This document shows positions 12,311 to 17,778 of a stretch of 20,007 bases of DNA, piece after piece. The stretch spans positions 1-20,007 of IMG/VR virus record IMGVR_UViG_3300021376_000466; one strand, written 5' to 3'. Every line of letters starts with the position of its first letter. Within the stretch, counting starts at the first letter, position 1. This stretch comes from a virus. Under the pieces are notes generated by a model. That model was given only the letters and a program-made list of their open reading frames with translations. It made no database searches and had not been told where the DNA came from. The position numbers and the translations under genes are program-made.

Positions 12311-12630
12311 GAGCAAAGCTGCGCCAATTTTGCAGCGGTGTTAATGGCGCCAAGCGCAATGTGGTACTGCCCAGCGCGGCGTGCTTCCATTTGAAGGGTG
12401 GAGCACTGGCTAAGCAGGTCTGCAATCATCTGCGGGCGTTCGATGTCCCAGTCAGCCTTGAGCATGTCCCGCGCCATGGATAGGTAGCGGTCACATGCGC
12501 CGGCCTTCACCCCCCAGTTTTCTTCCGCATACCTTAAGCAGTCCGACCTACGCCCGCCATTGGCGATGATGCGTGCAAACCGTTGTGCCCGCTGTTCGGT
12601 TTCGGCCTTAGTTGTACCAGGGGCGGCCAT
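12307..12630 (-). CDS. terS: Terminase small subunit
   Basis: A 107-residue helical protein directly upstream of the large terminase. The N-terminal half (TEQRAQRFARIIANGGRRSD, CLRYAEENWGVKAGACDRYL) looks like a helix-turn-helix DNA-recognition unit; the C-terminal half (IADLLSQCSTLQMEARRAGQ, YHIALGAINTAAKLAQL) is the long helical hairpin typical of TerS ring formation. It would recognise the phage packaging site and regulate TerL. Its ATG overlaps the methyltransferase stop by one base (TAATG), and its stop is GTGA-coupled to terL. No packaging site could be identified. Confidence 0.8.
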   Translation of the reverse strand: MAAPGTTKAETEQRAQRFARIIANGGRRSDCLRYAEENWGVKAGACDRYLSMARDMLKADWDIERPQMIADLLSQCSTLQMEARRAGQYHIALGAINTAAKLAQLCS

Positions 12631-13808
12631 TAGAACGCCTCCTTGTGTTCCTCAAGGATAGCTTTCTTGCCAGTGAAGTCTTCCCAGCGCTTGACGATTA
12701 CGTCGCAGTAAGCGGGGTCTAGTTCCATCATGCGGCAGTGGCGAGAGGTTTTCTCGCAGGCTATAAGAGTGGTGCCTGAGCCACCGTAGAGATCAACGAG
12801 CATGTCGCCAGCCTTGCCCCATCGCTTAAAGAACCATTCAGCAAGAGCTACAGGCTTTTGCGTTGGATGGACTCTCGTTTCATCGCCACGAGCTGTGTAG
12901 TTAGTCGTCACAAGAACACGAGCTAACTCGCGCTTGTGTTGCGTCTTTGACCAGCAAGTTTCAAAGGCACTGCCAAATCTACCATCTAGCAAGCCTTGGC
13001 GTTCTTGATCGCTGTATTTATCCCAAACAATCCAAGAGCCAAGGTTGGGGTATGCACGTCGCAGTGTCTCAACATAATAGTCGGCACCCCAAAGGAAGAT
13101 CTCTTTGCAATAAGCAAATGTTGACAACAGAAAGCCCGCGTCGTATTGCTCATTATCTGCGATGACAGCCTTGTGAGTTTTGCCACCATCACCCATTTTT
13201 GAGTAGTCGGTATCCAGATTCATGCCATAGGGCGGATCCGTGAACACCATGTCCGCCTTCTTGCCATCCATCAACCGCTCAACGGCTAGCACGTCCGTGC
13301 TGTCACCACAGAGGAGGCGGTGATTGCCAAGGATCCAGAGGTCGCCGGGCTTGGTGATGGGATCGGCAGGTGCCTCGGGTACGTCATCTGGATCGGTGTT
13401 GCCCTGCTCAGGCTCTAGCACCTCGGCTAATAGCTCGTCATCTTCAAACCACGGCGACAAGTCGTGCTCTTCACTGAGCTGCCGCAGCATCTCGTTGTCC
13501 CACTCACTGAGATCTGAGCTGCGGTTATCGGCAAGGGCAAGGCCTACCTTTTCATCTTCGGTGAGGCCAGCACGTCGTACAGCAATCAGCTCATCGCCAT
13601 CAGCTTCGACAATGCGGAGCTTGCTAATGCCTGCTTTTTTGGCGCCTTCTACGGTGCCATTACCAGCAAGGATGCGGCCTTCTTCGTCTATGACAATGCT
13701 GCGTGCGGCGCCGTAACGCTTGAGTGATTCTGCGATAAGCCCAGCGGAGCGATCAGTACGCCGCCGGGCATTTTTATGGTCTGACTTGAGATCCTTAATG
13801 GATGTCAC
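12630..13808 (-). CDS. ParB-like domain fused to DNA methyltransferase
   Basis: A 392-residue two-domain protein starting at a GTG (13808) that overlaps the dnaN stop as GTGA. Residues 1-130 form a ParB/Srx-type domain, with IVIDEEGRILAGNGTVEGAK containing the GNGTVEGA motif (49-56), where classical members have GN-R-. Residues 155-380 are an SAM-dependent amino-methyltransferase of the beta order: catalytic TDPPYGM (DPPY 191-194) first, HPTQKPVALAEWF (314-326), then SAM-binding DLYGGSGTT (339-347). It should methylate adenine N6 or cytosine N4; the target cannot be read from sequence. No restriction enzyme is adjacent, so it is probably an orphan phage methylase that protects or marks phage DNA or aids packaging. 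Such fusions are common in phages beside terminase genes. Confidence 0.88.
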   Translation of the reverse strand: MTSIKDLKSDHKNARRRTDRSAGLIAESLKRYGAARSIVIDEEGRILAGNGTVEGAKKAGISKLRIVEADGDELIAVRRAGLTEDEKVGLALADNRSSDLSEWDNEMLRQLSEEHDLSPWFEDDELLAEVLEPEQGNTDPDDVPEAPADPITKPGDLWILGNHRLLCGDSTDVLAVERLMDGKKADMVFTDPPYGMNLDTDYSKMGDGGKTHKAVIADNEQYDAGFLLSTFAYCKEIFLWGADYYVETLRRAYPNLGSWIVWDKYSDQERQGLLDGRFGSAFETCWSKTQHKRELARVLVTTNYTARGDETRVHPTQKPVALAEWFFKRWGKAGDMLVDLYGGSGTTLIACEKTSRHCRMMELDPAYCDVIVKRWEDFTGKKAILEEHKEAF

Positions 13809-14845
13809 TCTCTAATCTGCACGGGCATTACAAGATAAGTTAACGCATCTTCATCAGTTGGTGTCAATACTGCAGGCGTGGTTGCCGCATTAGCTGACAG
13901 CGCGACCTGTTCATGGCCGCGCATGGCTTTGAGGCCGTCTAGCAGGTAATGGACATTGAACGCCCAGGTGCCAGTTGCGGTGCCGTCATGGTGCAACACT
14001 TCGCGGCCATTATTGGCATCTGCTTCGGCTGTGATGGTGAGATCACAGTTGCGTGCTTCCAGCTTGACGATGCTGTTGTGCGCTTCTGCAATCAGTGCCA
14101 CGCGCTCTAGGGCGCGGGTGAAGCGATGCCGGTCAACGGTGATGGTGTGCTTGAAGCTGTCGGGGATCAGCTTTGCCACGTCAGGGTATTTGCCATCAAG
14201 GATGCGGCTGTAGATGGTGATGCCATCGTCAGTGGTGATGACGGCCTGACCGGCTGCGTGCGCGATGGTGATGGCGTGATCCTGCAGCAGGCGCATGGTG
14301 CTGGCTGGTAATACCACATCAAGGCCATCGGGCAGATCAACAGCAACACGCATGAGGCGATGACCGTCTGTGGCTTCCATGTAGCCGGCTGCGAGATGCA
14401 CACCAGCCAAGAGCGCTTTGCTCACATCAGTGCTGCAGCACGGCAGGCAGGCGCGCACACCAGCCGACAACATCAGCTCGGTGCCAGCAGCATCAACAAC
14501 GGGCATAGCAAGATAATCATCCGCATCCATCGCTGCAAGCCCGTAGGACGCCCCAGAGGCGCTTAAGGCGCCATCTGAAAGGGTCAGCACCTCGCCATCC
14601 TCAAAGCGGCTTACAAGCCCTGCTAGGAGCCTGTGAGGCAATGCCACAGTGCCGGGTGCCTCTACGGCTGCGGGAATAGTGACGCTGATGCCAAGTTCAA
14701 GGTTGAAGCCGGTAATGGTCATGGCGCCATCAGCAGCAGTGATCAAGGCACTGCCAAGGATGGGATGACTGTTGCTGGTGCTGATCGCAGGCGCCACGGT
14801 GCGTAGCGCATGGGCGAGGTCGCCTTGTGTTGTGATGAGTTTCAC
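13805..14845 (-). CDS. dnaN: Sliding clamp, DNA polymerase III beta subunit-like
   Basis: A 346-residue protein beginning (GTG start) KLITTQGDLAHALRTVAPAI and SNSHPILGSALITAADGAMT, with ITGFNLELGISVTIPA, the pattern of domain 1 of the bacterial beta clamp. Domain 2 includes MEATDGHRLMRVAVDLP (T-DGHRL is the clamp signature), and domain 3 ends TDEDALTYLVMPVQIRE, close to the usual Y-VMP-R-- terminus. The length is slightly under the usual 360-380 residues. The clamp encircles DNA and tethers polymerases and repair enzymes; a phage copy would replace or compete with the host clamp. No DNA polymerase gene lies in the window. GTGA junctions on both sides tie it to a small upstream gene and to the methyltransferase. 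Confidence 0.88.
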   Translation of the reverse strand: MKLITTQGDLAHALRTVAPAISTSNSHPILGSALITAADGAMTITGFNLELGISVTIPAAVEAPGTVALPHRLLAGLVSRFEDGEVLTLSDGALSASGASYGLAAMDADDYLAMPVVDAAGTELMLSAGVRACLPCCSTDVSKALLAGVHLAAGYMEATDGHRLMRVAVDLPDGLDVVLPASTMRLLQDHAITIAHAAGQAVITTDDGITIYSRILDGKYPDVAKLIPDSFKHTITVDRHRFTRALERVALIAEAHNSIVKLEARNCDLTITAEADANNGREVLHHDGTATGTWAFNVHYLLDGLKAMRGHEQVALSANAATTPAVLTPTDEDALTYLVMPVQIRE

Positions 14846-15045
14846 AGCGATGCTGCTTGGGTGAGATAAAGGATGATGCGGTCGTAATTAGCCTGAAAGC
14901 TGGCGACCAGTTCAGCTGGTATGGGCTGAGCTTCATCGGTCGCATTATCCATGACTGCAGCGGCATATGCAACCGCTTGGTCCATGATGTCGCTCAGTCG
15001 GTTGATGACGGGTCGTTGGCGTTCTGAGATTGAGATGCGATCCAT
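14842..15045 (-). CDS. Small helical hypothetical protein upstream of dnaN
   Basis: A 67-residue frame: MDRISISERQRPVINRLSDI, then MDQAVAYAAAVMDNATDEAQ, PIPAELVASFQANYDRIILY, ending LTQAASL. It is predicted to be helical with no enzymatic motif. The stop overlaps the GTG start of the clamp gene (GTGA, 14842-14845). The frame overlaps the preceding gene by 52 bases if the ATG at 15045 is used. An internal ATG at 14985, with a GAG-containing ribosome-binding site, would avoid the overlap and give a 47-residue product. I cannot decide between them. No family recognised. Confidence 0.6.
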   Translation of the reverse strand: MDRISISERQRPVINRLSDIMDQAVAYAAAVMDNATDEAQPIPAELVASFQANYDRIILYLTQAASL

Positions 15046-15281
15046 GTAATGACAAAAGCGGTGAGCAGCTCCACCATCCGACGTGGCATGTCACCACGTA
15101 GGTAAGCGGTCGCGTCGGAGATTAAACGGTGATAACCAGAAACAGTAAGTCCACTGTTGCAATTCAACACAAGCGCTCGGCTGCGGATCAACTCTGCACG
15201 CGCCACGCCAGCGGCTGCTGCCTGCTGATCCAGTAGCGCCAGGTCGGACTCTTCAAAGCGAACTTTGACTTCACGCATCAT
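14994..15281 (-). CDS. Ribbon-helix-helix-like protein next to the repeat region
   Basis: A 95-residue protein whose first 40 residues fit a ribbon-helix-helix or MobC-like DNA-binding unit: strand REVKVRFEES, helix DLALLDQQAAAAGV, helix ARAELIRSRALVL. The rest contains YHRLISDATAYLRGDMPRRM and a hydrophobic segment VELLTAFVITWIA of about 13 residues, probably an amphipathic helix. Its start lies immediately downstream of the repeat cluster at 15302-15565, so binding to those repeats as a replication or transcription regulator is a reasonable guess. Two adjacent ATG codons begin the frame. It is the first gene after the repeat gap and may head a sub-operon leading to dnaN. Confidence 0.65.
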   Translation of the reverse strand: MMREVKVRFEESDLALLDQQAAAAGVARAELIRSRALVLNCNSGLTVSGYHRLISDATAYLRGDMPRRMVELLTAFVITWIASQSQNANDPSSTD

Positions 15282-15301
15282 GCGGGCTCCAAAGGGTGCA
15301 A

Positions 15302-15565
15302 TTTAGGGCATGTCCCACCTCCAACGCAGGTAGGGCAGAGGTAGGGCAGGCAAACCCCCAGTCCAGCACTGGCATCTCCCTACCTACCCTACCTTCCCTA
15401 CCTAGAGTAATAAATAAAGAAAGAGAGGGGGAGGGAAAGGAACGCAGGGGATTCTTGGCAAGAGGTAGGGCAGTGGCAGGTAGGGCAGGAAAGGACCAGA
15501 TAGCCTGCGGCGCAGCGGATTTGGAAAATTGAATAGGTAGGGCAGGCTGCCCCACAGGTAGGGCA
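15302..15565. repeat. Iteron-like repeat cluster, candidate replication origin
   Basis: Six exact copies of AGGTAGGGCA lie on the plus strand at 15328-15337, 15339-15348, 15463-15472, 15478-15487, 15535-15544 and 15556-15565. A truncated TAGGGCA lies at 15304-15310. Three further AGGTAGGG units occur in inverted orientation between about 15379 and 15403. Between the groups are an AT-rich stretch (15407-15420) and an unbroken 27-base purine run (15416-15442). The cluster fills the gap between the primase gene and the next gene. Repeats, an AT-rich element and adjacent replication genes are the usual make-up of an iteron origin. Alternative: the repeats are the trace of a low-complexity coding tail. 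Confidence 0.6.
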
Positions 15566-17620
15566 CTATTTTCGATAGACATACCCCCTGCTCCCCCCTG
15601 TGCTGACGCGGTAGCGCTTAAAACCAAGCTGCTTGAGCACGTCTGCTACCTGCATTTGGTCTTGCCGTGTTTGACGCTCTACAGGTTTTTTTATGGCATC
15701 TGTTAGTAATTTTTCAGTGGTGATGTCAATGAATGGATGCTCTTTCAACCAAGACATAATTTCAGCCTGCCAAGGATTATCAACCACATAAGATTCGTTC
15801 TCAGTTGCAAGCAACCCTTCAAGTGCAGCAGGCAGGCGGCTGGTTTCACCATTGCGGTATGCAGCAACAGCGGCGGACCATATTGCATCACGCTCTAGCA
15901 ACAGCGAAGCGGTGTCGATTTGGTCCTGTTGTGTCTTGGTTGTAGGGATTACCCAGAAGCGGCGGTTGCCAGTTTCATCGACCAAAAAGCCGGTGGTACG
16001 GTTAGTTGTGCCGACAATGATTCCGCGCCTTGGGAATGCTTCAGTGGATTTACCGTAGGGCACGCGGAACATATCAACAGCCTGCGATAAAAAGGCTTTG
16101 ACTTGACCAGCGTGCTTGCGATTGGTCACATGGTCAAGTTCTGCCCACTCCATAATCCACGAGCGGTGCAGCACCATCAGATCATCTTTGGAGCTGATAT
16201 CACCTAACGCATCTGAGAAAAACTCACCGGCTAGGCAATTCCAGAACGAGGACTTGTAGGCGCCTTGATCGCCCATGATGACGCAGGCGGTGTCGTGCTT
16301 ACAGCCAGGGTTGTAGGCACGGGCAACAGCACCGATGAGGGTGCGTTTCATCATCTCGTCGTAGATGGTCCCCGGCTTATCACCAACGCGGAGGTAGGCG
16401 CTGGCTAGGGCTTCGATATAGGCAGGCTCGACGGTTGCGGCTACACGGTCGAGGTATTCGACTACGGGGTCATAGGGCGACTCATGCGCTACCTGCACGA
16501 TGCAGTCAAGCGCCACCTCTTTGGAAACCTTGTACCCCATCTGCGCAAGGGTGAGATAGAAGCGCTCGGCACCCTCGATGGCTGTGCCGTCTACTTCGAT
16601 GCGTTGAGTGAATGTGTTGTAGCGGTAAACGCTGCCGCCATCGCGCAAAAAGGCCAGTAATTCTGCAGCATTCATCGGCTGCAACTGCGCTAGCGGTGCA
16701 GTAGCAGCAGGCTCAGGCTTGGGCTTGCCGGCACGGGCAGCACGGCGCGGCTCTATTGACTCACGTCCACGCCAGCCGTCTTTCTTGGCTAGCTGACCGA
16801 GAGTGCCGAGGGTGATACCACCATCAGGCTTGAAGCCACGCCATTTGTGTTCGCAGTCTCCGGGTTTGAACTTGGACGATTGCGCTGACCATGTGATCCA
16901 GTCCTGCAGCAGGCTGTCATCTGCAAGGCTGTGTAAAGCCATGCCTACTTCCAGCCATTCGTCGTAGTCATCAGCGCGAGCAGGTGATAGCGCTTCGAGG
17001 TATGACCGTGCTCTGGCGGCATCTGCATCACCGGTAACCAACGGCAGGGACAGAGTGCTCTGCATCGTCTGGTGCAGCATCCGTGCAATCAGATCCGCTG
17101 GCGCGTCGGCAATGGGCAAGTCTGACGGCGATCGGCCTGGCAGCCAGGCATAGCCGCTAGTGAGTGGGTGAGCACCCGCTACAACGGACTGGCAACCATC
17201 CCAGCGGAGTTCTACTTGTTCGGGCTTGCCTTCGGTATCGGTGACACCGGTCTTAAAGCGCCGGGTGCGGATTTCAGACCAGTATTGCTTTGGGACTTGA
17301 TAAATGACCTGAAACCGGCCATCGCGGCCTGAGGTAACAGTCCAGCTCGGCGGCAGCGAGGAGACGGGCATCCCCCATGACTCCAGCATCTGCGATGCGG
17401 ACTTGCCGTCGTGGTCCAAGAACAACAGACCGCCTGACGGTGTGCCACAGCAGACGCCGATGGCGCGTGCGCGACCGGCTTTCAGCTCCTTGCCGAGTTC
17501 AGCGCGTGTGATGTGATTCTTTTGCCAGCCATCCATGTATGGCCGCTTCTGACCGTCAACTGCCACATAGGACCAATGGCGGGGCAACGCAGCAAGTTGC
17601 TGCAGTAATTCACTGCTCAT
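15566..17620 (-). CDS. Primase-polymerase fused to VirE/D5-type helicase
   Basis: The 684-residue protein probably primes and unwinds DNA at the phage origin. Residues 1-180 resemble an archaeo-eukaryotic-type prim-pol domain: GVCCGTPSGGLLFLDHDGKS with the metal-binding DHD (69-71), then TSGRDGRFQVIYQVP and QSVVAGAHPLTSGYAW. Residues about 203-283 match PriCT-2 (YLEALSPARADDYDEWLEVG, HKWRGFKPDGGITLGTLGQL). Residues 420-620 are a virulence-associated E-type P-loop ATPase: Walker A GDQGAYKSS (450-458), Walker B WIMEWAELD (488-496), GTTN (537-540) and arginine-containing GNRRFWVIPT (551-560). All catalytic landmarks are intact. Its ATG is coupled to the stop of the small ribbon-helix-helix gene, and its stop abuts the first origin-like repeat. 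Confidence 0.9.
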   Translation of the reverse strand: MSSELLQQLAALPRHWSYVAVDGQKRPYMDGWQKNHITRAELGKELKAGRARAIGVCCGTPSGGLLFLDHDGKSASQMLESWGMPVSSLPPSWTVTSGRDGRFQVIYQVPKQYWSEIRTRRFKTGVTDTEGKPEQVELRWDGCQSVVAGAHPLTSGYAWLPGRSPSDLPIADAPADLIARMLHQTMQSTLSLPLVTGDADAARARSYLEALSPARADDYDEWLEVGMALHSLADDSLLQDWITWSAQSSKFKPGDCEHKWRGFKPDGGITLGTLGQLAKKDGWRGRESIEPRRAARAGKPKPEPAATAPLAQLQPMNAAELLAFLRDGGSVYRYNTFTQRIEVDGTAIEGAERFYLTLAQMGYKVSKEVALDCIVQVAHESPYDPVVEYLDRVAATVEPAYIEALASAYLRVGDKPGTIYDEMMKRTLIGAVARAYNPGCKHDTACVIMGDQGAYKSSFWNCLAGEFFSDALGDISSKDDLMVLHRSWIMEWAELDHVTNRKHAGQVKAFLSQAVDMFRVPYGKSTEAFPRRGIIVGTTNRTTGFLVDETGNRRFWVIPTTKTQQDQIDTASLLLERDAIWSAAVAAYRNGETSRLPAALEGLLATENESYVVDNPWQAEIMSWLKEHPFIDITTEKLLTDAIKKPVERQTRQDQMQVADVLKQLGFKRYRVSTGGSRGYVYRK

Positions 17621-17778
17621 TGCTTTGCTGGCAGGATGCCGTCAAGCTGCAACCGCAGCGCCTGTTCCAGCAGCAGCCTTATGGCGGTGGCGCGATTCAT
17701 GCGGTCACCACGCCACAAGTCAAGGCGCTGCAGCAGGTCTGGGCTTAGGCGTATGTGGGTTGGATGGGCAAGGCGCAC
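17617..17778 (-). CDS. Small ribbon-helix-helix regulator candidate
   Basis: A 53-residue frame not starting with ATG: I place the start at the GTG at 17778. A stop lies 14 codons further upstream in frame, with only non-ATG codons between, so the exact start is uncertain. The sequence reads VRLAHPTHIRLSPDLLQRLD, LWRGDRMNRATAIRLLLEQA, then LRLQLDGILPAKQ. Strand (HIRLSPD), helix (LLQRLDLWRGD) and helix (NRATAIRLLLEQAL) match the CopG/Arc ribbon-helix-helix plan. Members bind DNA as dimers at inverted repeats, often repressing their own promoter. The stop overlaps the primase ATG (ATGA), and a perfect inverted repeat lies just upstream in the divergent intergenic region. Confidence 0.65.
   Translation of the reverse strand: MRLAHPTHIRLSPDLLQRLDLWRGDRMNRATAIRLLLEQALRLQLDGILPAKQ

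Follow-up and report, generated by a model that had tools for sequence, protein, structure and literature searches.

A candidate replication origin in cyanophages, with repeats that vary together with the winged helix of the adjacent PrimPol protein

A repeat cluster 3' of a PrimPol gene

We analyzed a 20,007-base virus contig (IMG/VR record IMGVR_UViG_3300021376_000466, positions 1–20,007), which we call the window. It encodes a protein that joins PrimPol, PriCT-2, and VapE-like helicase domains to a C-terminal winged helix, and the gap 3' of this gene contains a cluster of short repeats (Table 1). The structural genes of the window match those of two cyano-siphophages, KBS-S-2A and S-H1. A full-length match to the PrimPol protein was found in only one of 50,697 phage records, that of Synechococcus phage S-LBS1 (51% identity), and a scan of bacterial genomes found a single relative, in a Cyanobium metagenome bin. 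Taken together, these matches make it very likely that the window is from a freshwater cyanophage.

Table 1. Features of the candidate origin and its surroundings (positions in the window)
Feature	Position	Strand	Basis or remark
Candidate replication origin, non-coding gap 3' of the PrimPol gene, 284 bp	15282..15565	.	Repeats, kept position, no conserved frame
AGGTAGGGCA iteron units, outer pair adjoining the PrimPol stop	15535-15544 and 15556-15565 (15535..15565)	+	Sequence; aligned relatives
AGGTAGGGCA iteron units	15463-15472 and 15478-15487 (15463..15487)	+	Sequence; aligned relatives
AGGTAGGGCA iteron units	15328-15337 and 15339-15348 (15328..15348)	+	Sequence; aligned relatives
Three inverted head-to-tail AGGTAGGG units, 9-bp period, adjoining the AT/purine tract	15378-15385, 15387-15394, 15396-15403	-	Matching place in relatives
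Degenerate unit-like site AGGTGGGACA	15311-15320	-	Relatives conserve AGGTGGGRCA
AT-rich stretch and purine run between unit sets, candidate melting element	15404..15442	.	Putative melting role
PrimPol - PriCT-2 - VapE-like (SF3) helicase - winged helix, 684 aa, candidate initiator	15566..17620	-	Pfam PF09250, PF08707, PF05272; structure models
C-terminal winged helix, aa 634-684, candidate iteron reader	15569..15721	-	Unit co-variation; predicted helices and beta hairpin
D660 codon; wing T674 codon	15641-15643; 15599-15601	-	In the winged-helix segment of the PrimPol gene
Gene for a 53-aa ribbon-helix-helix (RHH) protein that may repress the replication operon; overlaps the start of the PrimPol gene	17617..17778	-	phrog_4738
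Downstream RHH gene, beyond the candidate origin	14994..15281	-	Weak NikA-like match, below cutoff
DNA polymerase III beta clamp, phage-encoded	13805-14845	-	
N6/N4 DNA methylase with ParB-like N-terminal part	12630-13808	-	

The initial annotation placed the gap at 15302–15565. The flanking genes (primase/helicase and RHH) and the end are as described there, but with the RHH gene starting at 15281 and the PrimPol stop at 15566, the true start of the gap is 15282, 20 bases earlier. The six perfect copies of AGGTAGGGCA that had been claimed are all present, all on the + strand and all within the gap. The three inverted AGGTAGGG units are also as claimed, and so are the AT-rich stretch (approximately 15404–15422) and the 27-base purine run (15416–15442). 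Across the 20-kb window, AGGTAGGG matches nine times, against 0.27 expected, and none of 100 shuffles reached nine; all nine matches lie between the PrimPol stop and the RHH start. Elsewhere in the window, no repeat cluster is as strong. The AT content over 40 nt peaks at 0.65 at the AT-rich stretch, which is equalled by 1.3% of the window.

A search of the phage collection with the 53-aa RHH protein gave no match. Upstream of PrimPol, relatives of this protein are found in 101 of 134 loci. The overlap of its gene with the PrimPol start gives the same order as orf56-orf904 in pRN1.

The position of the cluster is kept and the unit drifts

We compared 149 distinct loci with the end of PrimPol and the DNA downstream; this total comprises loci collected by PrimPol searches of IMG/VR together with S-LBS1 and the window. 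Tests of repeat excess and of co-variation used 95 representatives of these loci, and units were scored by direct counts of GGTNRGN. (A per-locus EM motif finder was dropped because purine-rich tracts drew the motif away from the units.) One reading frame of the gap happens to be open throughout in the window. However, a six-frame check over 240 nt found no open frame in 122 of the 149 relatives, so the gap is not a conserved coding region, in keeping with the initial annotation.

The decamer was expected to be conserved beside prim-pol genes. Its position is conserved, but its letters drift by clade (AGGTAGGGCA, AGGTGGGGTA, AGGTAGGACA, GGTTAGGACG, AGGTTAGGCA). The relatives have a repeat cluster 3' of the PrimPol gene at positions that match within clades, where the units hold the same alignment columns and their sequence changes in concert. 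In close relatives, the units lie about 6, 28, 83, 98, 165–183, 222, and 233 nt from the PrimPol stop, and these distances are kept. In more distant clades, another unit occupies the corresponding places: AGGTGGGGTA, AGGTAGGACA, or GGTTAGGACG, or in S-LBS1, AGGTTAGGCA and AGGTTGGGCA. Between the unit sets, aligned relatives have an AT-rich/pyrimidine tract, which is moderately AT-rich (equalled by 2–5% of genome windows).

Exact 7-mer repeats were in excess (a shuffle fraction of 0.05 or less) in the 300 nt 3' of PrimPol in 72 of 95 representatives, versus 0 of 95 internal gene controls. In the other 23 of 95, exact 7-mers were not significantly enriched; tests based on exact repeats overlook a quarter of these loci. 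Outside the 3' site, the seven near-complete relatives (six plus S-LBS1) together have just three isolated unit matches (G008 has two of these and G011 the third), and in five of the seven no other repeat cluster of the genome is as strong.

A minimum of GC skew at the site was another expectation of the initial annotation, and this one failed. In each of three near-complete genomes that have end repeats, the minimum after detrending is 12–17 kb away from the candidate, which is thus not supported by GC skew. Such a minimum would count in favor of an iteron origin but does not define one. Cumulative GC skew in six relatives and S-LBS1 had no consistent extremum at the candidate origin. Gene orientation probably dominates the skew.

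We also considered six distant phages with VapE-type genes. In three of them (Pseudomonas LPPA36, Marinobacter PS3, and Corynebacterium StAB), the 3' gap contains a cluster of repeats that exceeds local controls; with exact 8-mers, we found no such cluster in VarioGold, S-2L, or RcPescado. This suggests, but does not establish, that a repeat cluster 3' of VapE-type genes is a wider rule. Downstream of PrimPol in two of our loci (L206 and L212), the unit is TTGGAACA, which is unlike that of all relatives and resembles the StAB unit TGGAACAAC. In S-LBS1 (34268–34641), the end of the record repeats about 117 nt of the origin region 257 nt further on, from either a tandem duplication or an assembly end.

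Co-variation of the units with the winged helix

Using the 95 representatives, we asked whether the divergence of each domain follows the divergence of the units once whole-protein distance is removed (partial Mantel). The last 50 residues of the PrimPol protein, which form the predicted winged helix, follow the units (0.475, p = 0.0005 by label permutation). The other domains of this protein do not: the values were −0.05 for PrimPol, −0.27 for PriCT-2, and −0.12 for the VapE helicase. Synonymous sites of the winged-helix segment (codons with unchanged residues) gave −0.03, which argues against bare physical linkage, although these sites may be saturated. Still, the co-variation could be due in part to the winged helix and the origin being exchanged together as neighboring DNA. 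Among the 51 representatives that have the downstream RHH gene, the winged helix (0.295) and PriCT-2 (0.279) are tied, so the separation of the winged helix from other domains rests on the full set of 95. The parallel change of the unit sequence and these 50 residues suggests that the tail of PrimPol reads the repeats.

An alternative is that the units are single-strand priming templates for the primase part of the protein (PrimPol plus PriCT-2/helix-bundle domain). NrS-1 PrimPol primes at 5'-TTTGGTTA-3' and at GTG motifs (PMC8718748), and some types of unit contain GGTTA or GTGG strings. However, this seems inconsistent with the lack of tracking by PrimPol or PriCT-2 across the 95 representatives (the tie for PriCT-2 being confined to the RHH-bearing subset) and with the occurrence of units in both orientations. 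We consider this explanation improbable, but priming may also take place at units after melting.

We also considered the downstream RHH protein, which the initial annotation had raised as a possible binder. RHH proteins commonly bind short repeats, and the repeats are directly upstream of this gene, so they might be operators by which it regulates itself, or a centromere-like site. But the gene is absent beside the repeats in all 46 of 46 loci of the S-LBS1 type, where the repeats are kept, so the downstream RHH gene is not needed for the repeats. Furthermore, in the 51 representatives that have the gene, and with PrimPol distance removed, RHH divergence does not follow the units (−0.07 for the whole protein and −0.23 for the N-terminal part), whereas the winged helix correlates with the units at 0.73 given RHH distance. 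A role for the repeats as RHH sites is therefore quite improbable, slightly more so than a role as templates.

The least probable of the three is an origin like that of pRN1, in which a structure is recognized instead of the sequence of the repeats; we consider this very unlikely. The gene order is the same and the proteins are similar, pRN1 has as its origin a stem-loop of 100 nt 3' of orf904 (PMC4234260), and the inverted unit sets can pair. Yet across the three loci that we folded there was no consistent excess stability: L051 is more stable than its shuffles (z = −3.7), but L057 (z = −1.55) and the window (z = −1.3) are not, and we found no stable stem-loop of about 100 nt in the window. 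Also, a pure structure would not need the units to change together with a DNA-binding domain. Integrase arm sites were set aside because there is no integrase among the window proteins that were scanned and the S-LBS1 repeats are far from int (10085).

AlphaFold2 predicts the C-terminus to be a winged helix, with a mean pLDDT of 86 when modelled alone (the helicase part of the model has low confidence). In the model, helix 652–664 is the recognition helix and contains D660, and a beta hairpin (668–683) has T674 near its turn. The top structural match for amino acids 308–684 is SaPI PriRep1 with double-stranded DNA (7pds; Z = 14.0, rmsd 6.2 over 323 residues), which is also the top sequence match of the VapE part (E = 1.4e-26). 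The winged helix alone matches the same structure with only Z = 5.7. When the query for Foldseek was limited to the winged helix, no match reached E < 0.001, and the matches listed did not include the P4 origin-binding domain. The N-terminus matches the PrimPols of pRN1 and NrS-1.

Some residues of the winged helix go with particular units. With the winged helix left out of the tree, 9 of 10 independent contrasts pair Asp660 with GGTNGGG units (p = 0.011). Among the representatives, the median share of GGTNGGG in the GGTNRGN matches is 0.69 with Asp660 and otherwise 0 (maximum 0.32). The exceptions are L206 and L212, which have D660 yet use a third unit (see above). Two pairs of loci are informative. 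L024 and L022 differ at 42 of 680 residues, including K670A in the wing (L022/L024 numbering), and the unit changes throughout the cluster, from GGTGGGG in L022 (K) to GGTAGGG in L024 (A). In L180 and L186, the rest of the protein is close, while the winged helix and the unit both differ; it looks like these were exchanged together.

The proposed origin and related systems

The initial annotation had interpreted the gap as an origin, and comparison with relatives supports this. We think it likely, from sequence comparison and structure prediction, that 15282–15565 is a cyanophage replication origin whose AGGTAGGGCA iterons are bound by the winged helix (aa 634–684) of the phage's own PrimPol-VapE protein. 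The winged helix would bind the iterons as double-stranded DNA, with the gene for it ending at the edge of the origin. Because oppositely oriented units flank the AT-rich/purine tract, the bound protein could assemble SF3 helicase rings there. These rings would melt the tract, and the N-terminal PrimPol would then prime the exposed strand.

PICI origins have two sets of iterons flanking AT-rich DNA, immediately 3' of pri-rep (PMC6092414). The candidate origin has this same layout relative to the PrimPol gene, and the VapE-like/SF3 helicase is related to SaPI Rep and has a C-terminal predicted DNA-binding domain. Unlike the SaPI and PICI satellites, these are full-size tailed cyanophages, and PrimPol and PriCT-2 are fused ahead of the helicase. 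We do not class the window as a PICI because it contains a terminase large subunit and a coat/head gene region that matches cyanophages. Both SaPI Rep and SCCmec Cch2 bind iterons that directly follow their own genes, and they do so through a C-terminal domain (PMC7581432). For Cch2, these are putative origin iterons directly 3' of the helicase gene, and they are bound by the isolated C-terminal domain. But there, a separate pair, CCPol-MP (with an A-family polymerase), does the priming, and the iterons are only three copies of the 5-nt AAGTG.

According to the summary in PMC4234260, P4 alpha combines primase, helicase, and a winged helix that binds origin repeats in one protein. The P4 primase is of the TOPRIM type, whereas the primase here is archaeo-eukaryotic (Prim-Pol PF09250). 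The P4 origin has a second element, crr. We found no counterpart of crr here: near-complete relatives have no second cluster of units.

In pRN1, a small repressor gene is followed by a PrimPol-SF3-winged-helix gene and then, 3' of it, by the origin; the candidate repressor, the PrimPol gene, and the candidate origin have the same order here. The pRN1 origin differs in being a stem-loop without iterons, and the binding motif of ORF904 was described as "not yet identified" (PMC4234260). The same work proposed that initiators of the PrimPol-SF3-winged-helix type bind downstream of their own genes (PMC4234260); in the cyanophages, motifs of this kind can be seen, and they come in a series of natural variants. 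NrS-1 PrimPol also combines PrimPol, a helix-bundle domain, and a C-terminal helicase in one protein, but it has been described by its template recognition sites and not by origin iterons.

The best explanation, then, is an iteron origin that is read by the winged helix of PrimPol itself, resembling the origins of SaPI/PICI, SCCmec Cch2, and P4; it differs from these in its occurrence in a full-size cyanophage with an archaeo-eukaryotic PrimPol. This would extend the SaPI/PICI origin layout to full-size phages. A word search of the S-LBS1 genome paper found no mention of repeats or of a replication origin of its own, and from the open-access text that we searched, origins of this group of cyanophages seem not to have been described previously.

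More tentatively, the winged helix (the last ~50 residues) and the adjoining origin might be an exchangeable cassette that sets specificity through a residue-to-base code, which can be read in part. Cyanophages would have repeatedly swapped or evolved this cassette so that co-infecting relatives are kept from firing each other's origins. In the proposed code, D660 would go with GGTNGGG, and the wing residue with the base after GGT. The natural pairs (L024/L022 and L180/L186) make recognition testable with a 75-residue domain and short oligonucleotides. We also noticed that in L036 (7398–7580), as well as in L029 and L037, an ORF of about 60 amino acids between the origin and the RHH gene resembles the PrimPol winged helix (36% identity, E = 2e-6); it is possible that it encodes a free-standing origin binder or a competitor.
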